NCBI RefSeq assembly: GCF_018069925.1
Contig: NZ_JAGPXB010000003.1
Coordinates: 1-64,000 of the forward strand
Source: Flavobacterium erciyesense
Lineage (GTDB): Bacteria > Bacteroidota > Bacteroidia > Flavobacteriales > Flavobacteriaceae
DNA: 64,000 nucleotides
Direction of reading: 5' to 3'
A program made the position numbers and the translations under genes. The notes under the pieces were generated by a model. The model made no database searches. It had not been told where the DNA came from and saw only the letters and a program-made list of their open reading frames with translations. The stretch's first letter is position 1, and each line of letters opens with the position of its first letter. Below, piece after piece: positions 1 to 34,503 of this stretch.

Positions 1-25
1 ATGAGGCGGCGGGACGTTATGCCTC
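1..25 (+). repeat. Partial attC site (right arm only) at window edge
   Basis: The first bases are the right arm of an attC site (GGCGGCGGGACGTTATGCC). They match the right arms of the sites ending at 4764 and 5968. The presumed cut is after G16. The array therefore continues to the left of the window. Confidence 0.75.
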
Positions 26-50
26 AGTTTAGAAAGCCGAAAACATAAAA

Positions 51-542
51 ATGGAAAGAACAAATTTATTTGATAAAATATTAAAACATCTTTATGAAAA
101 TAAAGAGGATTATTGGAATTTAATACCGACATCTGAGCAATATTTCGGAATAACTGACGAAGATTTAATTGAATCAATTGTTGACGAAATGATTGAACGT
201 GAATGGGTCGACCAAAAGAATTATGATAAGTTTTCTGTAATAATAAAATATAATGGAAAACAAACATTTGAAAAGTATAAATCTTATTCATCTTTTTTAC
301 GTGATTTAAAAAAGTCAGAAAGTAAAGAGAAAGTCCAGAAAAACACTGATAGAATACTAAATAACATTAGTAGAATAAGTGCAATATTTTTAGGTGTGAG
401 TTCTTTCATATTAAGTTATAATAAATTTTTTATTGATGATGTAAAAATTGATAAGCAAAAAACAGAAATTGAAAACTTAAATAAAAAAATAGATTCAATT
501 TTAATAAAAAAACATAACAGAAAAATAAAAACGAAGGCATAA
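51..542 (+). CDS. Cassette 1 protein, unknown, single membrane segment
   Basis: This 163-residue protein is not recognised. Residues 1-100 are charged and mostly helical. A hydrophobic stretch near residues 107-125 could span the membrane, and the last 35 residues look like a lysine-rich coiled coil. The ATG at 51 lies 35 nt after the cassette border and follows an A-rich stretch typical of Bacteroidota starts. The TAA stop at 540-542 lies inside the TAAC core of the attC that follows, so the cassette has no 3' untranslated spacer. The gene is the only one in its cassette. Function cannot be stated. Whether it is expressed depends on a promoter in or upstream of the preceding site. Confidence 0.7.
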   Translation: MERTNLFDKILKHLYENKEDYWNLIPTSEQYFGITDEDLIESIVDEMIEREWVDQKNYDKFSVIIKYNGKQTFEKYKSYSSFLRDLKKSESKEKVQKNTDRILNNISRISAIFLGVSSFILSYNKFFIDDVKIDKQKTEIENLNKKIDSILIKKHNRKIKTKA

Positions 543-671
543 CAGTGGTTACAAGCCATGGCAATTTTATTGCTAAATTGATATTTGTTTTTCGCAAGAT
601 GTTTTATCTTGGTGGAAAATTTACGTTCACGAACTTTGCCACGAGCTTGTAGCCACAGGACGTTACCTGAT
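535..671 (+). repeat. attC site 1
   Basis: R'' is AGGCATAAC (535-543), the exact reverse complement of the cassette 1 start at 16-24. R' is CGTTACCTGAT with the cut after G662. The arms differ from the main attC family (left arm GTGGTTACAAGCC, right arm GAGCTTGTAGCCAC), but they pair with each other and the total length is the same. The centre contains TATCTTGG, a near match to the promoter -7 element. Confidence 0.8.
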
Positions 672-723
672 ATTTTAAAAACTGAAAATGACCAAAGAAC
701 AACAAAGAAATTAATCGACTTAT

Positions 724-1287
724 ATGTTAAAGAAACTCTCAATAGTTAGCTTTTTGATTCTATTCCTTCCTTTTTTTCAAACTTGTTCTGACAAAAATAT
801 TTCCAAAAACACAATGCTGAAAAACAGTCCATTATGGGAAGAGGTAAAAAACAATCCTAAAACTGAACTTAATGGAAAAGAATATAATTTAACTTTCGAA
901 GAATTAACTTTAAAAAAGAAAAAAGCAATTACAGATTTTGTTAAACTCAAAAAAGAAATAACACTGAATGGCTACCAAATAGGAAAATTATTCATTGAAG
1001 ATATTAAAACTCCTCAATGGCCATTAATGCCATTTTCGTTCTCTATTTTAATAAATATATTTTTAGTAATTTATTCATTTAAAGAAAAACCAAAAACAAT
1101 TTTAATTTTAGGTATGTTAAACATATTCTTATTAATAATCCCTCTAATAATGTTGTATTTCGGAAAGATATTTGAAGATATTGAACAACTAAAAATTGGG
1201 TATTATTTATTGATGTTTAATTTAACAATAATTATTTTTGAATCATATTCCCAAATGAAACCAAAAAAAACATCAGGTAACAGCTAG
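724..1287 (+). CDS. Cassette 2 putative lipoprotein with three membrane segments
   Basis: The 187-residue product starts with a lipoprotein-type signal: hydrophobic residues 5-18, then FFQTC with Cys21 as the likely lipidated residue. A charged region (25-95) follows, then three hydrophobic segments near residues 101-118, 125-145 and 158-176. I do not recognise the family. Translation runs into the attC site and ends at a TAG inside its left arm (1285-1287), so the last few residues are encoded by the recombination site. It is the only gene of cassette 2 (663-1400). The start follows the cassette border by 60 nt. Function is unknown; an envelope location is inferred from the signal and the segments. 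Confidence 0.7.
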   Translation: MLKKLSIVSFLILFLPFFQTCSDKNISKNTMLKNSPLWEEVKNNPKTELNGKEYNLTFEELTLKKKKAITDFVKLKKEITLNGYQIGKLFIEDIKTPQWPLMPFSFSILINIFLVIYSFKEKPKTILILGMLNIFLLIIPLIMLYFGKIFEDIEQLKIGYYLLMFNLTIIIFESYSQMKPKKTSGNS

Positions 1288-1409
1288 TAAGCAATAGTCG
1301 GGAATCAGGCTTAATGGGAAAATGGTTTTGTATTTGGAAAATTAGTGATAATCCGAAAATTTGTCTTTACTTAGCCCGACCATCGCCTACTAGCGGGACG
1401 TTAGCAGTA
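1272..1409 (+). repeat. attC site 2
   Basis: R'' ATCAGGTAAC (1272-1281) is the exact reverse complement of the cassette 2 start GTTACCTGAT (662-671). R' is GTTAGCAGTA with the cut after G1400. The arms (GCTAGTAAGCAATAGTCGGG on the left, CCCGACCATCGCCTACTAGC on the right) pair well and form a subtype distinct from sites 3, 4, 6 and 10. Confidence 0.85.
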
Positions 1410-1441
1410 ATGATTTTGACGCGCATCTTAAAAAAGTAATT

Positions 1442-1966
1442 ATGAATAAAAAAGCAAAAATATGGTTGTTAATTTTAAGCATAATTCTTGTTTCGACTTT
1501 CTTATTTTTCAAAATAAATCAGAGAATAAAAATAATAGAACTAACTTCAATTAATGTTGAAACGGAAAACGAAATTGACGTTGAAAAAGTAAAAATTTAT
1601 CAAGGTTATTATACAATAAACAGAGAAAATGACGCCGAAATTTTCAATGATAAGTCTGCGAAAATTGTATTTGACGGAAAATCTAATGGAAAAGCAAAAA
1701 CTGAATACGGAGAAAATGATTTTTTGCTAATTTATGACAATAAATATTACTTTCAATTCAGACAATTTTGCACAAACGACAATGATTTTTATAAATACAA
1801 TCTCAAACTTTTAAAAAAGAGAAATAAATTATACTTAAAAGCAGAAATAAGTAGCGGAATGAAATTTGAAAAACCACTAAACTTAATAAGCGAAGCCGAA
1901 AAATTGAGATGCAACGGAAAAATAGATGACGAAAAAGGATTGTATAACGGAATTGAACTTAAATAA
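1442..1966 (+). CDS. Cassette 3 membrane-anchored protein, unknown
   Basis: The 174-residue protein has one N-terminal hydrophobic segment (about residues 8-24) after a lysine-rich start, so it is probably anchored in the inner membrane with the rest outside the cytoplasm, or secreted. The remainder is rich in Lys, Asn, Asp and Tyr and contains two cysteines (in QFCTND and LRCNGK). No family is recognised. The ATG at 1442 follows an A-rich stretch 42 nt after the cassette border. The TAA stop precedes attC site 3 by 8 nt. It is the sole gene of cassette 3. Function cannot be assigned. Confidence 0.7.
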   Translation: MNKKAKIWLLILSIILVSTFLFFKINQRIKIIELTSINVETENEIDVEKVKIYQGYYTINRENDAEIFNDKSAKIVFDGKSNGKAKTEYGENDFLLIYDNKYYFQFRQFCTNDNDFYKYNLKLLKKRNKLYLKAEISSGMKFEKPLNLISEAEKLRCNGKIDDEKGLYNGIELK

Positions 1967-1974
1967 AATATCAC

Positions 1975-2112
1975 TACTGCTAACAGGCGTTTGGCAAGAT
2001 TGCGAATTTTGTAGTAAATTCACGTTTTCATTTCGCAAGAAATTTTATCTTTAACAGAAAATAATCAGTTCCGAAGTTCGCAACCTCGCCAAGCGCCGGA
2101 ACGTTAGCGGTA
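1975..2112 (+). repeat. attC site 3 (main subfamily)
   Basis: R'' TACTGCTAAC (1975-1984) exactly complements the cassette 3 start at 1400-1409. The left arm GGCGTTTGGCAAGATTGCGAA pairs with the right arm TTCGCAACCTCGCCAAGCGCC. The cut is after G2103. The centre holds TATCTTTA (2045-2052), one base away from the Bacteroidota -7 element. It is nearly identical to sites 4, 6 and 10. Confidence 0.9.
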
Positions 2113-2133
2113 ATTACATCAAACATTCGTACT

Positions 2134-2766
2134 ATGAAACAACTTATTTATTTAACATTATTAATTCCCTTTATATCTTTTGCACAGCGAAACTATCTCG
2201 ATGAAGGTAATAAACTACTAAGCCAAAATAAAAATATGGAGGCGGAGGAAATCTTTAAAGAAGCGCTAAATTCAGAAAAAGATAATTTAATTTACCGCAC
2301 TCAACTTGGATTATCTCTAATAAATCAGGGGGAATATATCAAAGCTGAAAAACAGCTTGAAAAAGTCTTGGCTAAAGATCCGAGTAACACTGCCGCACTT
2401 TGGTATTCAGGAATTAACAATTTTCAAAATGCAAAAAACTTTAGAAAAGCGGTTATCTATTTCGAAAAAGCTTATCCTTTCATTCCTAAAACCTCACCAC
2501 AGTTTTTTGCTGTCAATTTTTTTATTGGAAAATCATATAGAAACTTGTTGTATACTGAAGGTTTAACTTACGAAGAAACAAGTCGAATGCTCGAAACTTC
2601 AAATGAATATGTAAGACTTCAACCTAACGCAAGCGATACGGATCAATTTATTTCTTTTATAAAATATGTTGAAGAAAATCGATTTCCACCAAATGTAAAA
2701 AAGTGGAGAGTCGTAAATGAAAACAATGCGGACGAATTAATAAATAAAGAATTGGAACGTAAGTAA
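2134..2766 (+). CDS. Cassette 4 secreted TPR-repeat protein
   Basis: This 210-residue protein has a signal peptide (residues 1-17, cleavage after SFA in FISFAQ). Tetratricopeptide repeats follow from about residue 20 to 130; the pattern of small and aromatic residues is clearest at about 21-53, 55-86 and 89-121. TPR arrays mediate protein-protein contacts; no enzymatic motif is present. The C-terminal 60 residues resemble the tail of Flavobacteria TPR proteins with a YVRLQP segment. It is the only gene in cassette 4 (2104-2896), with the ATG 30 nt after the border and the stop 1 nt before R''. A periplasmic location is inferred from the signal peptide. The partner is unknown. Confidence 0.8.
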   Translation: MKQLIYLTLLIPFISFAQRNYLDEGNKLLSQNKNMEAEEIFKEALNSEKDNLIYRTQLGLSLINQGEYIKAEKQLEKVLAKDPSNTAALWYSGINNFQNAKNFRKAVIYFEKAYPFIPKTSPQFFAVNFFIGKSYRNLLYTEGLTYEETSRMLETSNEYVRLQPNASDTDQFISFIKYVEENRFPPNVKKWRVVNENNADELINKELERK

Positions 2767-2767
2767 C

Positions 2768-2905
2768 TACCGCTAACAGGCGTTTGGCAAGATTGCGAAT
2801 TTTGTAGTTAATTCACGTTTACATTTCGCAAGAAATTTTATCTTTGATAGAAAATAATCGGTTCCGAAGTTCGCAACCTCGCCAAGCGCCGGAACGTTGG
2901 CGGTA
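2768..2905 (+). repeat. attC site 4 (main subfamily)
   Basis: R'' TACCGCTAAC (2768-2777) exactly complements the cassette 4 start at 2103-2112. R' is GTTGGCGGTA with the cut after G2896. The arms are as in site 3. The core differs (GTTG rather than GTTA), and the same change appears at the far end of cassette 5 (CAAC), as expected for co-inherited halves. Confidence 0.9.
2839..2846 (+). promoter_or_regulatory. -7 element TATCTTTG inside attC 4
   Basis: This is a perfect match to the Bacteroidota TAnnTTTG -7 element. It ends 50 nt before the recombination G and points toward the cassette 5 gene. There is no exact -33 TTG at normal spacing, only TTT (2818-2820). Confidence 0.45.
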
Positions 2906-3313
2906 ATGCAAAACAGAAAAATGGAAAACGAGAAAATATCAGTGGAAAATGGAAAGTGGTATATCGCTGAAATAATTGAAAAGTGTGAACCCGTAAACCG
3001 AAATGAAGCACAAGAATTACGTAGAGTTAAAACTTGGGGAAACTTCCATATAATTAAAGCCGAAACTCCAAAAAAAGCATATGATAAAGCTGTTAAAATT
3101 GGAAAAGAAGCAGAATATAAATTCACAAACTCTGACAATTTAGAAATGGAATGGATTTTTATTGGAATAGGAAATCTTATACCAATTTATGAAGATATTG
3201 AAGATGGAAGTGAAATAATGTGGGAGAATTATGGAGATATTAGTAACAGAAGAGCGATGAAATTTCCAATCAGTGAAGAAAAACTTTTAGCAGAATTAAA
3301 AGAAAAGAAGTAA
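2906..3313 (+). CDS. Cassette 5 DUF4288-family protein
   Basis: The 135-residue product resembles DUF4288 proteins: an N-terminal WYIAEIIEKCEP strand segment (about residue 18) followed by a FHIIKAETPKKAYDKAVKIG segment in which a helix follows a strand. DUF4288 has no assigned biochemical role; the proteins are small and cytoplasmic. Two starts are possible, ATG 2906 (directly after the recombination core) and ATG 2921 after an A-rich stretch; 2921 has the better context, and the longer form is given here. Any start further upstream would lie in the attC. It is the only gene of cassette 5. Confidence 0.7.
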   Translation: MQNRKMENEKISVENGKWYIAEIIEKCEPVNRNEAQELRRVKTWGNFHIIKAETPKKAYDKAVKIGKEAEYKFTNSDNLEMEWIFIGIGNLIPIYEDIEDGSEIMWENYGDISNRRAMKFPISEEKLLAELKEKK

Positions 3314-3334
3314 AAACATTGTAAATAAATGCAC

Positions 3335-3473
3335 TACCGCCAACAGCCGTTACACGAGATTTGGGCATTAGGCTGAATTTAAAGATGGTTTTGTACTTGG
3401 GAAATTTGTGTTTAACCGAAAAACCTCGCATCTTTAATCCCAAACCTCGTGTAGCGCCAGAACGTTGTGTGCT
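3335..3473 (+). repeat. attC site 5
   Basis: R'' TACCGCCAAC (3335-3344) exactly complements the cassette 5 start at 2896-2905. R' is GTTGTGTGCT with the cut after G3464. It belongs to a divergent subtype: the left arm GCCGTTACACGAGATTTGGG pairs with CCCAAACCTCGTGTAGCGCC. Confidence 0.85.
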
Positions 3474-3553
3474 ATAATTGCGCTGAACGTAAACTACATG
3501 AAAAAAATCAAAATTTATTTGCTAATTGTTAACTTTTAAGATAACTTTGTCAA

Positions 3554-3892
3554 ATGAGTAGAGAAATTATATTTTACGAAAATCATTTTATTGAGTTTTA
3601 CCAAAGTCAAGATGAAAAGGTAAAAGAAAAAATGAAATACGTTCTTGAATTAATAAAACAAGTTGAGAAAGTTCCGGAAAAATTTTTAAAACATTTGACA
3701 GGAACAAACGGACTTTATGAAATAAGAATTGAATATCAGTCAAATATTTATAGAATATTTTGTTGCTTTGATAAAGGGAAATTGGTTGTGCTTTTTAATG
3801 TTTTTCAGAAAAAATCTCAAAAGACACCAAAAAATGAATTAGAAAAAGCATTGAATTTAATGAACGAGTATTTTCAACAAAAAAACATTTAA
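3554..3892 (+). CDS. higB: Cassette 6 HigB/RelE-type toxin
   Basis: The 112-residue protein matches the phage Gp49-like / HigB branch of the RelE-ParE toxins: GLYEIRIEYQSNIYRIFCCF (about residues 53-72) is the typical core strand pair, followed by LFNVFQKKSQKTPKNELEKA. Family members are mRNA interferases that cut mRNA on the ribosome. The toxin gene comes first and the antitoxin starts 1 nt after its stop, the usual higBA order. A 90-nt leader separates it from the cassette border and contains TAACTTTTAAG / AACTTTG sequence that may include the operon's own promoter. Within integron arrays such pairs are known to stabilise the array. The family is seen; the exact subfamily is inferred. Confidence 0.88.
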   Translation: MSREIIFYENHFIEFYQSQDEKVKEKMKYVLELIKQVEKVPEKFLKHLTGTNGLYEIRIEYQSNIYRIFCCFDKGKLVVLFNVFQKKSQKTPKNELEKALNLMNEYFQQKNI

Positions 3893-3893
3893 A

Positions 3894-4193
3894 ATGAAAG
3901 ATTATAAAAACATAAAAAATTTCGACCAACTTATTGAAGTTGAACACGGAAAAATCGGAACAGAAAGTAGAAATAGCTACGAAGAAAAATCACAGATGTT
4001 CATCATAAGTGAAATGCTTAAAGACGCTCGAAAAGAAGCTAAAATAACTCAAGAGCAATTGGCTGAAAGAACTGGAACAAAAAAAAGTTACATTTCGAGA
4101 ATTGAAAACGGAAGAGGAAATATTCAACTTTCAACATTAATAAGAATCTTTGAAATTGGATTAAATAAAAGAATTGGGTTAACCTTTTTGTAA
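3894..4193 (+). CDS. higA: Cassette 6 XRE-family antitoxin
   Basis: This 99-residue protein has a Cro/C1-type helix-turn-helix in its C-terminal half (about residues 42-95): ARKEAKITQEQLAERTGTKK and then the recognition region SYISRIENGRGNIQLSTL. The N-terminal 40 residues (with YEEKSQMF) are the usual toxin-binding arm of HigA-type antitoxins. It follows the toxin gene by 1 nt and so is translationally coupled. It would neutralise the toxin and repress the pair's promoter. The last residues LTFL end at TAA, 14 nt before attC site 6. Confidence 0.88.
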   Translation: MKDYKNIKNFDQLIEVEHGKIGTESRNSYEEKSQMFIISEMLKDARKEAKITQEQLAERTGTKKSYISRIENGRGNIQLSTLIRIFEIGLNKRIGLTFL

Positions 4194-4207
4194 GTAAATA
4201 ATATTAC

Positions 4208-4345
4208 AGCACACAACAGGCGTTTGGCAAGATTGCGAATTTTGTAGTAAATACAGGTTTATTTCTCGCAAGAAATTTTATCTTTGATAGAAAATAAACA
4301 GTTCCGAAGTTCGCAACCTCGCCAAGCGCCGGAACGTTATATGCC
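4208..4345 (+). repeat. attC site 6 (main subfamily)
   Basis: R'' AGCACACAAC (4208-4217) exactly complements the cassette 6 start at 3464-3473. R' is GTTATATGCC with the cut after G4336. The arms are identical to sites 3 and 4. Confidence 0.9.
4279..4286 (+). promoter_or_regulatory. -7 element TATCTTTG inside attC 6
   Basis: A perfect TAnnTTTG element ends 50 nt before the recombination G, at the same place as in site 4. It would drive transcription into the geneless cassette 7. Confidence 0.4.
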
Positions 4346-4635
4346 ACTTATCTGCAACAGAAAAGATAAATTCGTAGAACATCGCTTCTACTCTACTTTT
4401 CGACTTAAAAACGCAACGGAATAATTTTGAAAAGCAGAAACTGAAAAGCAGAAACTGAAAAATAGAACCGAAAAACAGAACCGAAAAGCAGAAACCGAAA
4501 AGTGGAATCTGAAAAATGAAACTTGAAATCAGAAACCGAAAAGTGGAATCTGAAAAGTGGAATCTGAAAAGTGGAATCTGAAAAGTGGAATCTGAAAAGT
4601 GGAATCTGAAAATTGATCAAGAAAAAAATTTAAGC
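4337..4635 (+). repeat. Cassette 7: geneless cassette of 14-bp tandem repeats
   Basis: After about 90 nt of unique sequence the cassette consists of 14-bp units of the type GAAAAGCAGAAACT, GAAAAACAGAACC(G) and GAAAAGTGGAATCT (about 4429-4615), the last repeated five times without change. The + strand is strongly purine-rich. No + strand reading frame exists. The minus strand is open only because the unit lacks stops when read in reverse. Both ends (GTTATATGCC and GGCATATAAC) match, so it is an intact cassette. It shares its first 90 nt with cassette 9 and its last 35 nt with cassette 12. Confidence 0.85.
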
Positions 4636-4773
4636 GGCATATAACAGCCGTCTCAAGCCATTGCGAATTTTCTCCTAAATTGACGCTTTCGTTCCGCAAG
4701 TTTATTTATATTTGGTGGAAAATAATCGGGTCCGAAGTTCGCAACGGCATGAGGCGGCGAAACGTTATAGGCT
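4636..4773 (+). repeat. attC site 7 (second subfamily)
   Basis: R'' GGCATATAAC (4636-4645) exactly complements the cassette 7 start. The left arm GCCGTCTCAAGCCATTGCGAA pairs with the right arm TTCGCAACGGCATGAGGCGGC. The cut is after G4764. Confidence 0.9.
4707..4714 (+). promoter_or_regulatory. -7 element TATATTTG inside attC 7
   Basis: A perfect TAnnTTTG match ends 50 nt before the recombination G and lies 89 nt upstream of the acetyltransferase start. A TTG at 4680-4682 is 24 nt upstream, slightly long for a -33 partner. Confidence 0.45.
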
Positions 4774-4802
4774 ATGTTGCGGACGACCTCAAACAGAAAT
4801 TT

Positions 4803-5309
4803 ATGTATAGGCAAATTGAAACAGAACGACTTTTAATAAGACCGATAAATATTACTGATACGAGTTTTATCCTTGACTTGTTAAACTCAGATGGTTGGTT
4901 GCAGTTTATAGGTGACAGAAAAGTTAAAAACGTTGTAGACACTGAAAAATATATTCAAAACATTCTCGACAACGAGAAATTCTATTACAGTGTCTTTGAG
5001 CTTAAAGAAAGCAAACAAAAAGTTGGTATTATAACGTTTCTTTATCGAGACAACCAACAATTTCCCGACATTGGATTTGCAATGCTACCAGAATTTGACA
5101 AAAAAGGTTACGCAATTGAAGCAACTAAGAAATATTTAGAAGAAATTGCAAATGAGAAAAAAGTAAATAAAGTCATTGCGATAACTCTACCAGACAACTC
5201 AAAATCAATAAGACTTATAGAACGACTTGGACTTAAGTACGAGGACGAAATCCAAGACAACTCAAAAATTTTATATTTATATTCGCGGACACTTTTTTAC
5301 AATGAATAG
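4803..5309 (+). CDS. Cassette 8 GNAT-family N-acetyltransferase
   Basis: The 168-residue protein is a RimJ/RimL-like acetyltransferase: the N-terminal TERLLIRPINITDTSFIL start of the fold, DIGFAMLPEFDKKGYAIEAT (about residues 84-103) for the acetyl-CoA pyrophosphate-binding loop, and the C-terminal ITLPDNSKSIRLIERLGL motif. These enzymes transfer an acetyl group from acetyl-CoA to an amine; the substrate is not predictable. The start at ATG 4803 gives the normal domain boundary; upstream in-frame codons are in the attC. GNAT proteins are common integron cargo. The stop precedes attC site 8 by 15 nt. Confidence 0.85.
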   Translation: MYRQIETERLLIRPINITDTSFILDLLNSDGWLQFIGDRKVKNVVDTEKYIQNILDNEKFYYSVFELKESKQKVGIITFLYRDNQQFPDIGFAMLPEFDKKGYAIEATKKYLEEIANEKKVNKVIAITLPDNSKSIRLIERLGLKYEDEIQDNSKILYLYSRTLFYNE

Positions 5310-5324
5310 AAAGACAAGAAACAC

Positions 5325-5462
5325 AGCCTATAACAGCACATTGGCAATAGGCGGGGTTTCGTCTCCGTATGACAGTTTTGTGGTAGCCGAAAGTTCAGGT
5401 CTCCGAACAAACTTCTGCGGTGGAAAGCCCGCCCATCGCCAAGCGGCAAAACGTTATATGCC
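5325..5462 (+). repeat. attC site 8
   Basis: R'' AGCCTATAAC (5325-5334) exactly complements the cassette 8 start at 4764-4773. R' is GTTATATGCC with the cut after G5453. It is a divergent subtype: the left arm GCACATTGGCAATAGGCGGG pairs with CCCGCCCATCGCCAAGCGGC. Confidence 0.85.
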
Positions 5463-5839
5463 ACTTATCTCCAGCAGAAAACATAAATTAGTCGAAAATC
5501 ACTTCTACCCTACTTTTCGACTTTTAAACGTACAGGAATAATTTTGAAAAGCAGAAACTGAAAAGCAGAAACTGAAAAGCAGAAACTGAAAAGCAGAAAC
5601 TGAAAAACAGAAACCGAAAAGTGGAAATCGAAAAGTGGAAATCGAAAAGTGGAAATCGAAAAGTGGGAATCGAAAAGTGGAAATCGAAAAGTGAAAACTG
5701 AAAAACGAAACTTGAAAGCAGAAACCGAAAAGCAGAAACTGAAAAGCAGAAACTGAAAAGCAGAAACCGAAAAGTGGAAACCGAAAAGCGAAACTTGAAA
5801 AGCAAAATCTTAAAAATAGAAACTTTAAAATATTCAACC
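5454..5839 (+). repeat. Cassette 9: geneless tandem-repeat cassette with mismatched ends
   Basis: The first 90 nt are a diverged copy of the cassette 7 start. About 260 bp of 14-bp units follow (GAAAAGCAGAAACT, GAAAAGTGGAAATC and variants, about 5544-5803). The cassette starts GTTATATGCC but its end reads GCCCTATAAC, which does not complement it. The end complements the start of cassette 12 instead. No + strand gene is visible; the minus-strand frames are open because the unit has no reverse-strand stops. Confidence 0.85.
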
Positions 5840-5977
5840 GCCCTATAACAGCCGTCTCAAGCCATTGCGAATTTTCTCCTAAATTGACGCTTTAGTTTCG
5901 CAAGTTTATTTATATTTGGTGGAAAATAATCGGGTCCGAACTTCGCAACGGCATGAGGCGTCGGGACGTTAGCAAAT
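5840..5977 (+). repeat. attC site 9 (second subfamily)
   Basis: The arms are as in site 7. R'' is GCCCTATAAC and R' is GTTAGCAAAT, with the cut after G5968. R'' fails to match the start of its own cassette and fits cassette 12 in 10 of 10 bases. Confidence 0.9.
5911..5918 (+). promoter_or_regulatory. -7 element TATATTTG inside attC 9
   Basis: A perfect TAnnTTTG match ends 50 nt before the recombination G and lies 85 nt upstream of the serine hydrolase start. A TTG at 5884-5886 is 24 nt upstream. Confidence 0.45.
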
Positions 5978-6002
5978 ATTATATTACCAAGAAACTTTAC
6001 AA

Positions 6003-7070
6003 ATGAAAATAATATCTAAAATCGCAATCATAATTACTTTACTTTTGGGCGCAAAAGGAATAAGCCAAACGAATCAAGAATTACTTAGGCAAATTGATTC
6101 GTTATTAACGAATAATAACCAAAATAACACCATAAATGGTAATGTATTAGTTATTCAAAATAGTGAAGTTTTATATGAAAAATCATTTGGTTTTGCGGAA
6201 CCAAATCGAAAAATAAAATTGAATAAAGAATCTAAATTTTTAATCGGTTCAATTTACAAAGAGTTTCCAGCTGTAGCAATAATGCAATTAAGCGAAAAAG
6301 GGTTAATCAACGTAGAAGACAATATCGACAAATATATTCCTGGATTGCCTTCGTGGTCTAAAGATATATCAATAAAATATTTACTGCAATATTCAGCTGG
6401 GCTACCAGATATTCAAACCAAAAAATATCCACAAGATAAAATTATCACCACTAAAGATATTTTTAATGATCTTTTAAATATTCCAAACTTAATTTATAAA
6501 CCTGGAACTGATTATTTGTACACCAATTATAGTCCCCTTTTACTAATGAAAATTGTTGAAAATGTAAGTGGCAAAACATTTAATGAATACTCGAAAATTT
6601 TCCTTTTTAACTCCGAAAATATTAACATAAAAACACAATATCCATATATAGAAAAGGACAATTTAGCAGTATCATTTAATAATGAATTTGTTCCTGACAA
6701 TTTTAAATTAGAAATTCCATTTTTGTTTGTTAGTAATTCTTATGGTTTGTACGATTGGTTTAAGAGAATTGATGAAAATTCTTTAATAAGTGAAAAATCA
6801 AAATTATTTCTCGGTAAAACTGCAAATATTTTATCCGATAAATCCATGCAAAGTCCTTTTGGAAAACTATATACTACAAAACAAATAACATCTAGAGAAA
6901 TTTCAGTTACAGAACATACTCACGATGGAAGTTTTGGAAATTTTAAATGTATTGCAAGAAGGTTTAATTTGGAAAATATTACTATAATAATCTTGACTAA
7001 TCAGAATACGAATAATGTTTACGAAATATCAGAGGCAATTTACAATTTAGTAATTAAAAAGACAAAATAA
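6003..7070 (+). CDS. Cassette 10 secreted serine hydrolase (beta-lactamase/PBP fold)
   Basis: The 355-residue protein begins with a signal peptide (about residues 1-21). It carries the three active-site motifs of the class C beta-lactamase / DD-peptidase superfamily: SIYK at residues 83-86 (nucleophile Ser83 and Lys86), YTN at 173-175, and HDG at 307-309 in place of KTG. The family includes esterases, D-amino-acid peptidases and beta-lactamases, so the substrate is open; an HxG third box is more common in esterase or peptidase members than in true AmpC. At 1235 bp this is the longest cassette. The stop precedes R'' by 4 nt. Resistance activity should not be assumed. Confidence 0.85.
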   Translation: MKIISKIAIIITLLLGAKGISQTNQELLRQIDSLLTNNNQNNTINGNVLVIQNSEVLYEKSFGFAEPNRKIKLNKESKFLIGSIYKEFPAVAIMQLSEKGLINVEDNIDKYIPGLPSWSKDISIKYLLQYSAGLPDIQTKKYPQDKIITTKDIFNDLLNIPNLIYKPGTDYLYTNYSPLLLMKIVENVSGKTFNEYSKIFLFNSENINIKTQYPYIEKDNLAVSFNNEFVPDNFKLEIPFLFVSNSYGLYDWFKRIDENSLISEKSKLFLGKTANILSDKSMQSPFGKLYTTKQITSREISVTEHTHDGSFGNFKCIARRFNLENITIIILTNQNTNNVYEISEAIYNLVIKKTK

Positions 7071-7074
7071 TAAC

Positions 7075-7212
7075 ATTTGCTAACAGGCGTTTGGCAAGAT
7101 TGCGAATTTTGTAGTAAATTCACGTTTATTTCACGCAAGAAATTTTATCTTTAACAGAAAATAATCGGTTCCGAAGTTCGCAACCTCGCCAAGTGCCGGA
7201 ACGTTAGCGATT
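7075..7212 (+). repeat. attC site 10 (main subfamily)
   Basis: R'' ATTTGCTAAC (7075-7084) exactly complements the cassette 10 start at 5968-5977. R' is GTTAGCGATT with the cut after G7203. The centre holds TATCTTTA (7145-7152), one base off the -7 consensus. Confidence 0.9.
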
Positions 7213-7243
7213 ATTGCTGAGGACCAAAATTAAACTGAAGAAG

Positions 7244-7723
7244 ATGAAGACAATATTTACTATTCTTTTAGCACAGATTCCTGTTTTTCTGTTTGGACAA
7301 GTTTCCAAAGATTCCGAATTATTCAAATCATTGAAAACCCATGATAGTATTTTTTTTGAAAAAAGCTTTAATCAATGCGACATGGATTATATTGGAAAAG
7401 CAATTCACGCCGATATGATTTTCTATCATGATAAAAGTGGCATTCAAAATAAAGCTAAGTTTCTCGAAAATGTTCGTAAAAATTTATGCTCAAACTTTGA
7501 TAAAAAGCCAATCAGAAAAATTCAAAAAGGAAGTCTCGAAGTTTATCCACTTTATGACGACGGAAAACTTTATGGAGTTATTCAAAATGGAATACATGAA
7601 TTTTATATTAGAGAAAAAGGAAAAGAAGACTTGCTCACTGGGAAAGCTAAATTTACTCACGTTTATCTTTTAGAAAATAATCAATGGATATTAAAAGAGG
7701 TTTTGAGTTATGATCACCAATAA
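7244..7723 (+). CDS. Cassette 11 secreted NTF2-like (DUF4440-type) protein
   Basis: The 159-residue protein has a signal peptide (about residues 1-18, ending LFGQ) followed by an NTF2-like cone fold of the DUF4440/SnoaL type. An alpha-helical start with the FNQCDMDYIGKAIHADMIFYH pattern (shown shortened, about residues 45-65) is followed by four strands ending KFTHVYLLENNQWILKEVLS. Relatives are small binding proteins or enzymes with a central pocket; no specific reaction can be named. The ATG at 7244 is preferred because it begins the signal peptide; the ten in-frame codons before it have no good start. The stop precedes attC site 11 by 7 nt. Confidence 0.75.
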   Translation: MKTIFTILLAQIPVFLFGQVSKDSELFKSLKTHDSIFFEKSFNQCDMDYIGKAIHADMIFYHDKSGIQNKAKFLENVRKNLCSNFDKKPIRKIQKGSLEVYPLYDDGKLYGVIQNGIHEFYIREKGKEDLLTGKAKFTHVYLLENNQWILKEVLSYDHQ

Positions 7724-7730
7724 TTGCAAC

Positions 7731-7867
7731 AATCGCTAACAAATGCTAAATCTCATGGCTGGTTTTCGTTAAATTGTGCGTTTCTTTTTCATAACTTCGC
7801 TCGGTCGGTTATGGAAAAAAAGATTTCCATAAGCCGCCACAAGCTCTAGCATCGAGCGTTATAGGGC
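7731..7867 (+). repeat. attC site 11
   Basis: R'' AATCGCTAAC (7731-7740) exactly complements the cassette 11 start at 7203-7212. R' is GTTATAGGGC with the cut after G7858. The arms are divergent (AAATGCTAAATCTCATGGC on the left, GCCGCCACAAGCTCTAGCAT on the right). Confidence 0.85.
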
Positions 7868-8160
7868 AGTTGCGAATTTACGCAGACATTAAGAATTAGA
7901 AATAAATTAATCTTCCGCTAGAGTTTTTGAAAGCGAAAGTTGAAAGCGAAACTTGAAAGCGAAACTTGAAAGCGAAACTTGAAAGCGATACTTGAAAAGC
8001 AGAAACCGAAAAGCAGAAACCGAAAAGTGTAAACCGAAAATTGGAAACCGAAAAACGAAACTTGAAACAGAATCTAAAAAGCAGAATCTAAAAAGCAGAA
8101 TCTGAAAAGCAGAATCTGAAAAATGGAAACCTGAAAATTGGTCAAGAAAAAAATTTAAGC
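7859..8160 (+). repeat. Cassette 12: geneless tandem-repeat cassette with mismatched ends
   Basis: About 65 nt of unique sequence is followed by repeat units (about 7926-8143), first GAAAGCGAAACTT (shorter units) and then GAAAAGCAGAAACC and GAAAAGCAGAATCT. The cassette starts GTTATAGGGC but ends GGCATATAAC, and its last 35 nt match the end of cassette 7. The ends are the reciprocal of cassette 9. No gene is visible. Confidence 0.85.
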
Positions 8161-8299
8161 GGCATATAACAGCCGTCTCAAACCATTGCGAATTTTGTGG
8201 TAAGTTCACGTTCACGTTTCGCAAGAAATTTTATCTTTAACAGAAAATAATTAGTTCCTAAATTCGCAACTGATGCCAAGCGGCGGAGCGTCTGTGCCA
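8161..8299 (+). repeat. attC site 12, last well-preserved site, mutated core
   Basis: The left arm is of the site 7 type (GCCGTCTCAAACCATTGCGAA), while the centre and spacing follow the site 3 type, so it is a hybrid. The right core reads GCGTCTGTGCC instead of ACGTTA, so the GTT triplet is lost and recombination here is probably impaired. It marks the right limit of the intact array. Confidence 0.8.
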
Positions 8300-8329: not shown

Positions 8330-8932
8330 ATGATATTAGAAACTGAAAAAATATTATCTAACAATGACCCTATACTTGCAAAGGTAATCCTTCAAATTCC
8401 AAAGCCAGAAATTGAATCCACAAACGATGTTTTTCACGATTTAGTGAGTTGCATTTTTGAACAACAAATTCATTACCGAAGCACAAAAAGAATCTTTGCA
8501 AAAGCATTAGAAAAGTCATCCATTGAACACTTGACTTTAGACAACTTTTATTTAGTAGAGGAACATTATTTGAAAAACTCAAATTTGGCAACAGGCAAGT
8601 ATGAAACCTTGCTTGCTTTTATCGATTATTGGAGCAACAATACCAAAGATTTCAACACACTTTCAGATAATGAAGTAGTGAAAGAACTATCATCTATAAA
8701 AGGTATTGGAAAATGGACAATAGATATGATTTTGTTGTATACCTTACAGCGACAAAACGTTTTTCCGTATGATGATTATCATTTAAAACAAATCATGGTT
8801 TCATTGTACGGACTTAATGAAAAAGTAAAACTGAAAGCACAAATGTTGGAGATTGCTGAAAATTGGGGAGAGCATAAATCATTAGCTGTTTTATATTTGT
8901 TAGCTTTTAAAAAATTCGGAACACGACTATGA
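8330..8932 (+). CDS. DNA-3-methyladenine glycosylase family protein (HhH-GPD)
   Basis: The 200-residue protein belongs to the AlkA-like helix-hairpin-helix glycosylases, which remove alkylated purines from DNA as the first step of base-excision repair. The hairpin motif is at LSSIKGIGKWTIDMILLYTL (about residues 119-138), followed by FPYDDYHLK, where the conserved catalytic Asp is expected. It lacks the N-terminal TBP-like domain of E. coli AlkA and has no FeS cluster cysteines, as in the short AlkA2-type enzymes. Its stop overlaps the next start by 4 nt (ATGA at 8929), so the two genes are coupled. It sits just beyond the mutated attC 12 and was probably a cassette gene that has become fixed. 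Confidence 0.85.
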   Translation: MILETEKILSNNDPILAKVILQIPKPEIESTNDVFHDLVSCIFEQQIHYRSTKRIFAKALEKSSIEHLTLDNFYLVEEHYLKNSNLATGKYETLLAFIDYWSNNTKDFNTLSDNEVVKELSSIKGIGKWTIDMILLYTLQRQNVFPYDDYHLKQIMVSLYGLNEKVKLKAQMLEIAENWGEHKSLAVLYLLAFKKFGTRL

Positions 8933-34355: not shown

Positions 34356-34402
34356 TTTTTACATTATTTTTAAAAATTTAAACGTCTACTAAGTAATTAA
34401 TT

Positions 34403-34503
34403 CCTGCATGAGGGATAGCAGTGATATCCTTTTATATCGTGACTTATTTCAAGTCACGATATAAAAGATAAAACGAATAGCCCGACCCAAAGGGACATGC
34501 CCT
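34403..34503 (+). ncRNA. Candidate structured RNA with a 17-bp perfect hairpin
   Basis: A perfect 17-bp hairpin (34429-34445 with 34451-34467, loop ATTTC) is flanked by pairing elements: GCATG (34406-34410) with CATGC (34496-34500), AGGG near 34411 with CCC near 34481, and a small hairpin CCC-AAA-GGG (34486-34494). Together they form a closed, branched structure. The flanking motif GAATAGCCCGACCCAAAGGG resembles a sequence that I recall as recurring between genes in Flavobacteriaceae; I cannot name its family with certainty. It lies between the nitroreductase and the MarR gene. The strand is inferred. Confidence 0.5.

Follow-up and report, generated by a model that had tools for sequence, protein, structure and literature searches.

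The described systems closest to the locus reported here are the sedentary chromosomal integrons of the Vibrio type, with their integrase IntI and their attI and attC sites. For most known cassettes of such integrons, 9–11 consecutive complementary nucleotides are usual (PMC2727003). In canonical attC sites, one side of the L stem bears extrahelical bases (PMC2727003, PMC3053210), and eight residues have been reported to contact these bases (PMC3053210). The additional domain I2 is stated to be necessary for cassette capture and to occur in no other protein, and I2 together with single-strand recombination is stated to be exclusive to integron integrases (PMC7790495); I2 and the extrahelical bases are described as co-evolved, which poses a chicken-and-egg problem (PMC4792948). 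Integrons are known in Bacteroidota in general (PMC8618304), with one complete integron, that of Salinibacter, named for Bacteroidetes proper by IntegronFinder 2.0 (PMC9024848), and in Treponema the integrase is transcribed towards attI and the cassettes (PMC3607928); all of these sources are cited here for parts of their text. In this work, we analyzed a window of 64,000 nucleotides from Flavobacterium erciyesense (positions 1–64000 of contig C23 of genome G000, position 1 being the start of the contig), whose first 8,294 bases are the distal end of an array of attC-like sites and cassettes. An integron of this kind from Flavobacterium or other Bacteroidia is not described among the matches listed in the open PMC literature without preprints.

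We interpret the window as the distal part of a sedentary integron-type array, whose attC-like sites are probably recombined with attI by a linked family of tyrosine recombinases; taken as a whole, this explanation has in our estimate a probability of about 0.8. The features observed directly are cassette closure, uniformity of the sites, strand-asymmetric wobbles, linkage of gene and array, the architecture of attI, exchange of cassettes, a recombinase without the IntI insert, and a scarcity of extrahelical bases.

The array in the window comprises 12 complete attC-like sites, one cut site and 12 complete cassettes, the first at 16–543 and the last at 7858–8170; past its end lies non-array sequence with a frame at 8330–8932. 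Because position 1 is the start of the contig, the array has been cut there by the assembly. A covariance model of the sites (R1), built partly from those of the window, found all 12 of them, an outcome that the earlier note on this DNA, made from the sequence alone, had named as support for its reading, and nothing in the remaining 55.7 kb. In the genome as a whole (3.43 Mb, 99.97% complete), the array is spread over five contigs, C23 and the small contigs C17, C18, C19 and C22, which are filled with the same sites; together they hold 40 complete sites, those of the window included, plus cut ones at contig ends. The breaks fall in or near near-identical sites, as a short-read assembly would presumably give. 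Among 35 cassettes of this genome, the longest ATG frame lies on the plus strand in 29 and on the minus strand in none, and 6 have no frame of at least 90 codons. The contents of the window cassettes, three unknowns and three non-coding cassettes among them, are of the sort known from sedentary arrays.

The closure of the cassettes, which the earlier note had claimed for ten of the twelve, was borne out. The identity run between the start of a cassette and the reverse complement of its own end is 10 bases in nine cassettes, 9 in cassette 1, and 6 in two (5453–5849 and 7858–8170). The sum of these runs, 111, compares with a shuffled mean of 56.5 and a maximum of 92, and none of 20,000 permutations of the ends among cassettes reaches it. 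As was also claimed, the halves of one site as arrayed do not match past the arms: the match covers just 3–6 bases (11 sites). The proposed integron-type array of circularisable cassettes with a G/TT boundary in a Flavobacterium genome is supported. The complementarity extends beyond 10 bases, with 14 of 15 positions paired in 9 of the 12 cassettes, and the odd base is position 11, A at the start and G on the reverse complement of the end, that is, a fixed G.T on the bottom strand and A.C on the top strand. Taken alone, the 10-base closure is canonical integron behaviour. The two exceptions, cassettes 9 and 12, have swapped ends: the start of cassette 9 is of the end type of cassettes 7 and 12, and the start of cassette 12 is of the end type of cassette 9. 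Both are built of a 14-bp tandem repeat and resemble chimeras of two repeat-filled non-coding cassettes, as if these had recombined via the repeats. This repeat, GAAAAGNNGAAACY, occurs in the non-coding cassettes of the window (4336–4645, 5453–5849, 7858–8170) and of C17, C19 and C22; it has 62 forward and no reverse matches in its own genome and none in the 120 other genomes of the genus.

The sites follow one plan: AAC, one nucleotide, a 20-bp stem, a variable loop, the stem partner, five nucleotides and GTT. They have the inverted R and L arms, the GTTRRRY and RYYYAAC boxes and the bottom-strand hairpin of integron sites, and the bottom-strand fold, suggested as a check by the earlier note, is more stable than that of the top strand in 10 of 11 window sites (DNA parameters). 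The previously quoted length of 137–139 bp is right as to uniformity and takes in the R boxes; from AAC to GTT, 11 sites measure 123–125 bp. A likeness to Vibrio repeats in architecture, as proposed, holds for length and fails for the extrahelical bases, which most sites lack, and for the central spacer of one versus five nucleotides.

Since our first stem finder favoured bottom-strand over top-strand wobbles and required an ungapped stem, it could itself have created the wobble asymmetry and the lack of bulges, and both were therefore re-measured by a closure walk that uses nine exact bases and is blind to the stem. This walk yielded 132 sites (two records of the same sequence, G007/L063 and L083, are both counted) and 121 distinct cassettes, and both features persisted in it. 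No bulge was seen in 113 of the 132 sites, and 107 of these 113 have the (1,5) spacer. At R position 11, G.T lies on the bottom strand in 97 of 121 cassettes and on the top strand in none; 23 are mismatched in other ways, often, as judged by eye and not counted, through what resembles a shift by one base, and positions 12–15 are paired again in 104–112 of the 121. At L-stem position 14, G.T lies on the bottom strand in 99 of the 109 cassettes with 12 or more matches in the (1,5) register, and on the top strand in none. The cassette-specific letters around the wobbles vary, which argues for selection on pairing that favours the DNA strand opposite the transcript. Scored in this way, the surroundings of three IntI genes gave 10 candidate rows, 9 of them with a bulge; this control is small, since the canonical IntI loci yielded few attC sites, and it is noisy, some rows probably being there by chance. 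Five matches with a (2,2) spacer, by place the two-strand palindromes of L064 and L065, were excluded from the covariance model, the search for repeated cassettes and the bulge control, and are still in the stem-finder totals for the same-genus loci given below. Most sites lack a feature described as conserved in all folded attC sites.

On a separate contig (C16), we identified a gene for a tyrosine recombinase of 347 residues. The earlier note had expected an integrase with the IntI-specific patch, an expectation that failed: no protein in the 3.43 Mb scores above the cut-off of TIGR02249, and the recombinase that heads such arrays has no such patch. Its closest NCBIfam model is NF040815 (XerA type; 216.6 bits, cut-off 220), while TIGR02249 matches at 195.6 bits (cut-off 265) in two pieces, profile positions 2–178 and 239–315. 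Residues 186–245 of IntI4 align to just 18 residues of the recombinase, which is short by about 41 residues around the I2 domain; by number, six of the eight contact residues (K209, Y210, W219, P232, H240 and H241; PMC3053210, in the part cited) fall within this interval. The distance between two catalytic anchors, KGxKDR and HxxRH, is 58–67, mostly 59, in 95 own, named and same-genus frames that match the anchors, as against 100 in all 9 IntI frames (7 from those of the 30 loci that matched the anchor pattern, plus L197 and L200, which may duplicate one of the 7). The motif KYP..W..F, composed after the sequences had been viewed, is found in none of 104 family and near-family proteins and in 27 of 29 IntI. 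In a tree of 52 rows, family A (21 rows) and IntI (16 rows, the canonical IntI of the phylum, which form a clade of their own) each occupy one side of a branch with 100/99 support; four rows drew long-branch warnings, and the deeper branch order is unsure. The predicted model of a 77% identical homologue from F. caseinilyticum (mean pLDDT 83.5, pTM 0.54, residues 322–335 below 50) has IntI4 as its top Foldseek match (TM about 0.5), followed by XerA, and shows an N-terminal domain of the order beta-beta-alpha-beta-beta-alpha. The N-terminal stretch of the recombinase itself has no Pfam match, so that a likeness to HARP, which had been considered, finds no backing there. Judged by its sequence, the enzyme is not an IntI: it is XerA-like, lacks I2 and falls outside the IntI clade. 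The family occurs in records labelled Bacteroidota and in a few others that are perhaps mis-binned.

Relatives of 590–604 residues with long N-terminal extensions were found at four loci (L193–L196), all with the anchor distance of 59; three of them (L193, L194, L195) head co-oriented arrays, and no sites were found at L196. In the F. erciyesense genome itself, a second recombinase (L031, C7:45000–60000; a frame of 385 codons, 38% identical, minus strand) has on its other side three plus-strand sites (6561, 11254, 12862), between which lie an IS91-type transposase and a third tyrosine recombinase; this may be a second, divergent integron.

C16 ends 101 nt past the recombinase gene at ...GTAGCGCATATATACTA, the left half of a junction read in relatives as TATATAC[AT]A/GTT. 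Behind the integrase stop come first a TAnnTTTG box and a hairpin, then ACCC..GGGT, and after it another hairpin, which contains a related word, and TATATACAA/GTT. The crossover motif near TATATACAA/GTT was found in 64 of 97 such regions. The TAnnTTTG box, which we take to be the -7 box of Bacteroidota, is present within 60 nt of the stop in 56 of the 97, in 42 of them at 9–13 nt, compared with a mean of 2.2 and a maximum of 6 in shuffled sequences and with 2 of 90 in a later control stretch. The arms of the attI hairpin covary; columns -25 and -13, for example, are Watson-Crick paired in 92% of the rows, with three pair types. Another candidate for attI on C16, AAATAC/GTTAGCG, was dropped; the conserved junction sits further on, at the contig end.

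In many relatives from Bacteroidota, the order is the same: recombinase, promoter-like box, hairpin-rich attI and co-oriented array, so that a tyrosine recombinase gene stands beside attI at the head of an array; in the F. erciyesense genome this can be followed up to the end of C16. We surveyed 80 named loci, from Flavobacterium, Frigoriflavimonas, Pelobium, Hufsiella and Algoriphagus and from metagenome-assembled genomes labelled Chitinophaga, Chryseobacterium, Saprospiraceae, Bacteroidales, Lutibacter, Ignavibacteria and Azoarcus (the last perhaps mis-binned). The stem finder placed sites downstream of the gene at 38 of them, and same-strand sites numbered 112 in 319 kb downstream and 2 in 684 kb upstream. 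The 14 opposite-strand sites divide into 6 downstream and 8 upstream, all 8 in a single 3.6-kb contig (L088). R1, run on 20 of the 80 loci, added sites at L086, L111, L140 and L149 and found none at L102, L107, L134, L138, L145 and L162. Among 20 same-genus integrase loci, 13 have co-oriented downstream sites by the stem finder, and a fourteenth, L076, with a 38% identical gene, has 25 sites by R1. At L081 and L082 the contig ends within 270 bp of the gene, L067 has a gene interrupted by a stop and one weak partial site match, L078 and L079 gave no sites, and at L077 five sites lie across the gene from the usual place and diverge from it (L202).

Across 121 genomes of the genus, R1 found one or more sites (E up to 1e-3) in 106. 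The best match to the recombinase is at E<1e-100 in 42 genomes, between 1e-40 and 1e-100 in 24, and weaker in 55, where it is Xer-like (G004 and G049 keep a gene fragment). Median numbers of sites per genome are 17, 19 and 4 for the strong, middle and weak groups (counts were recorded up to 27 per genome), and the first two groups, which have the family gene or a near relative of it, hold more sites than the rest (Mann-Whitney 3e-8 for both against the rest). One site cluster, L198 (G010:C1:1315000–1334999), lies in a single-contig genome whose best recombinase match is Xer-like. A plasmid of Chryseobacterium sp. SNU WT5 (L205, NZ_CP041688.1) carries the recombinase gene and four sites, with Crp/Fnr, RidA and metallophosphoesterase genes annotated among them, and is possibly a mobile form of the array. 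F. psychrophilum DSM 3660 has the recombinase and two sites (L108); its genome paper (PMC4322650) uses none of the words integron, integrase and cassette, and a literature match of "attC" for this species was discarded as a misprinted strain name.

Single cassettes also move with G/TT borders. A 1.43-kb cassette of Pelobium (L119:18872–20314) is 93.8% identical to one in another member of Bacteroidia (L153:17585–19027); the match starts four bases ahead of the first cassette border and stops four bases past the second, with different neighbours on both sides. Within L069, a 447-bp cassette is repeated exactly and a 770-bp cassette at 97.5%, and the likeness in L069 continues into the preceding site; in L106 a cassette of 1,088 bp is repeated at 99.6%.

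Together, these data suggest the following mechanism. The recombinase would cut single-stranded bottom-strand hairpins and probably recombines the folded bottom strand of the attC-like sites with the hairpin-rich attI behind its own gene, circular cassettes being inserted at C/GTT, with the attI-proximal end first. In place of extrahelical bases, the strand may be marked by the asymmetry of the spacer (1 versus 5 nt) together with the G.T wobbles. The TAnnTTTG box, which begins about 11 nt behind the stop codon of the integrase and points into the array, is the likely promoter Pc, and C16 presumably joins the array of its own genome.

Several observations weigh against this interpretation. Of the 97 regions after the integrase stop, 33 yielded no attI motif and 41 no promoter box. 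C16 and the array contigs are unjoined in the assembly, and a synteny test of their flanks gave no link: none of 11 relatives has, at 1e-40, the glycosylase that lies right of the array, and in none of the 11 does the integrase have beside it the peptidase that lies to its left here (the peptidase is on another contig, or at least 63 kb away). A wobble at L5 runs the opposite way, 60 of 109 cassettes having G.T on the top strand there, and for 19 of the 132 walked sites a one-base bulge improves the score, 16 in L' and 3 in L''. No stem-finder sites were seen at 42 of the 80 named loci, 33 of which lie on contigs that end within 1.3 kb of the gene; R1 likewise finds none over 10 kb in L134 and L162 and over 5 kb in L102. 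Finally, 23 of the 55 genomes with a match weaker than 1e-40 hold at least five sites, so sites occur without the linked family gene.

That last point is what might be expected if the host XerC and XerD moved the cassettes in place of the linked recombinase, as in Xer-exploiting elements of the phage CTXphi type: genomes with Xer-like recombinases only often retain sites, and canonical extrahelical bases are missing from most sites, as they are from the CTXphi stem according to the cited part of PMC4792948. We consider this improbable, given the larger numbers of sites where the family gene or one closely related to it is present and the attI-like motif that follows the linked gene in roughly two-thirds of the regions. 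Still less likely is an integron of the canonical type, its IntI lost from the assembly and the linked recombinase a bystander. Canonical IntI does exist elsewhere in the phylum (105 of 395 genomes above the TIGR02249 cut-off), but none of these 105 genomes is of the same genus or family, the F. erciyesense genome is nearly complete and has none above the cut-off, R1 finds no site beside 30 canonical IntI loci (1.5-kb flanks) or at L197, L199 and L200 (15–18 kb), and in many genomes the array is headed by a gene that is not an IntI and has a conserved attI with it. Very little speaks for the 138-bp elements being transposable or RNA elements (terminator-like hairpins or MITEs), since, palindromic as they are and present as single copies away from arrays on C38, C5 and C9, they keep a nearly constant strand and place beside the gene and are not found in either orientation inside genes with fixed ends, the pattern by which the earlier note would have recognized a transposable element, while their wobble asymmetry favours the DNA strand opposite the transcript and the matching ends belong to one cassette, not to one element.

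Features of the array in the window and of the recombinase gene (coordinates refer to the window unless a contig is given; for sites, the strand is that of the hairpin, minus being the bottom strand).
Feature	Coordinates	Strand	Remarks
Cut attC-like site, 3' end	1..18	+	truncated by contig start; cassette 1 begins at GTT 16
attC-like site 1	536..669	-	R1 79.7 bits
attC-like site 2	1274..1407	-	R1 103.5 bits
attC-like site 3	1977..2110	-	R1 118.3 bits
attC-like site 4	2770..2903	-	R1 115.3 bits
attC-like site 5	3337..3471	-	R1 118.2 bits
attC-like site 6	4210..4343	-	R1 112.8 bits
attC-like site 7	4638..4771	-	R1 97.1 bits
attC-like site 8	5327..5460	-	R1 85.1 bits
attC-like site 9	5842..5975	-	R1 89 bits
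attC-like site 10	7077..7210	-	R1 109.4 bits
attC-like site 11	7733..7865	-	R1 50.7 bits
Last attC-like site, distal end of array	8163..8294	-	R1 62.6 bits; R' box degenerate, CGTCTG, not CGTTRRR
Cassette 1 open reading frame (ORF)	51..542	+	163 aa; no Pfam family
Cassette 2 ORF	724..1287	+	187 aa; no Pfam family
Cassette 3 ORF	1442..1966	+	174 aa; no Pfam family
Cassette 4 ORF, tetratricopeptide-repeat (TPR) protein	2134..2766	+	PF07719 1.8e-7
Cassette 5 ORF, DUF4288	2897..3313	+	TTG start as listed; PF14119 6.5e-16
Cassette 6, Gp49-family toxin-like ORF (3554-3892) and HTH antitoxin-like ORF (3894-4193)	3554..4193	+	PF05973 1.2e-22; PF01381 4.4e-15
Cassette 7, non-coding	4336..4645	+	14-bp tandem repeats
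Cassette 8 ORF, GNAT acetyltransferase	4803..5309	+	PF13302 2.6e-21
Cassette 9, non-coding	5453..5849	+	14-bp repeats; two different end types (chimera)
Cassette 10 ORF, serine hydrolase	6003..7070	+	355 aa; PF00144 family, 1.5e-28
Cassette 11 ORF, DUF4440	7244..7723	+	2.4e-6
Cassette 12, non-coding	7858..8170	+	14-bp repeats; reciprocal chimera of cassette 9
Tyrosine recombinase gene	C16:11942-12985		347 aa; transcribed towards attI-like junction at contig end

Elsewhere in the window, a Flavo-1 RNA (Rfam RF01705) at 34401–34491 is ordinary.

The recombinase is not IntI and most of the sites lack canonical extrahelical bases, so that the system appears to work like an integron, yet fails the tests that define membership. 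As far as sequence can tell, it most likely does function as one. Integrase-array co-orientation by itself is already known from Treponema (PMC3607928, in the part cited); new are the recombinase without I2, the asymmetric and mostly bulge-free site with two fixed wobbles, and the hairpin attI. On balance, we lean towards the view that single-stranded-DNA cassette recombination exists outside IntI, with a XerA-like lineage of Bacteroidota running integrons without I2, on attC sites mostly devoid of canonical extrahelical bases whose strand is marked by the asymmetric spacer and two fixed G.T wobbles, either as an independent origin of integrons or as a survivor of a stage that preceded I2. A natural system without I2 and extrahelical bases would break the chicken-and-egg deadlock, and it makes the need for I2 directly testable. 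If this view is correct, searches that require IntI or canonical attC overlook a cassette reservoir, to be set against the 106 of 121 Flavobacterium genomes with a site and the four sites on a plasmid.

Compared with known systems, the nearest by enzyme outside the family is an IS91/ISCR-associated tyrosine recombinase of Acinetobacter (L204, NZ_CP104735.1, beside ISVsa3 and tet(X3)), 47% identical over residues 80–347, whose origin may lie near this lineage; it differs in sitting with an IS91-type transposase, in a 3.8-kb stretch where R1 finds no site. The integron of Salinibacter ruber M1 (PMC9024848, in the part cited) and the canonical IntI elsewhere in Bacteroidota share the phylum. XerA/Xer and the Xer-exploiting elements such as CTXphi share the closest model, NF040815, the absence of I2 and a stem without canonical extrahelical bases, whereas the system described here has a dedicated gene with an N-terminal domain of 60–70 aa, a linked attI and arrays that can reach tens of cassettes. 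Treponema integrons share the orientation of the integrase towards the array; their integrase is reported as intI in the cited part of PMC3607928, whereas the recombinase here lacks the IntI-specific insert, the two being set apart by description and not by sequence comparison. The sedentary Vibrio-type integrons are alike in G/TT closure, in hairpin sites of similar length, in co-oriented genes of mostly unknown function accompanied by toxin-antitoxin-like and several non-coding cassettes, and in an attI at the array head. In contrast to them, the system of F. erciyesense and its relatives employs no IntI with the additional domain, has a stem mostly without extrahelical bases and a central spacer of 1 versus 5 nt, and transcribes its integrase in the direction of the array.

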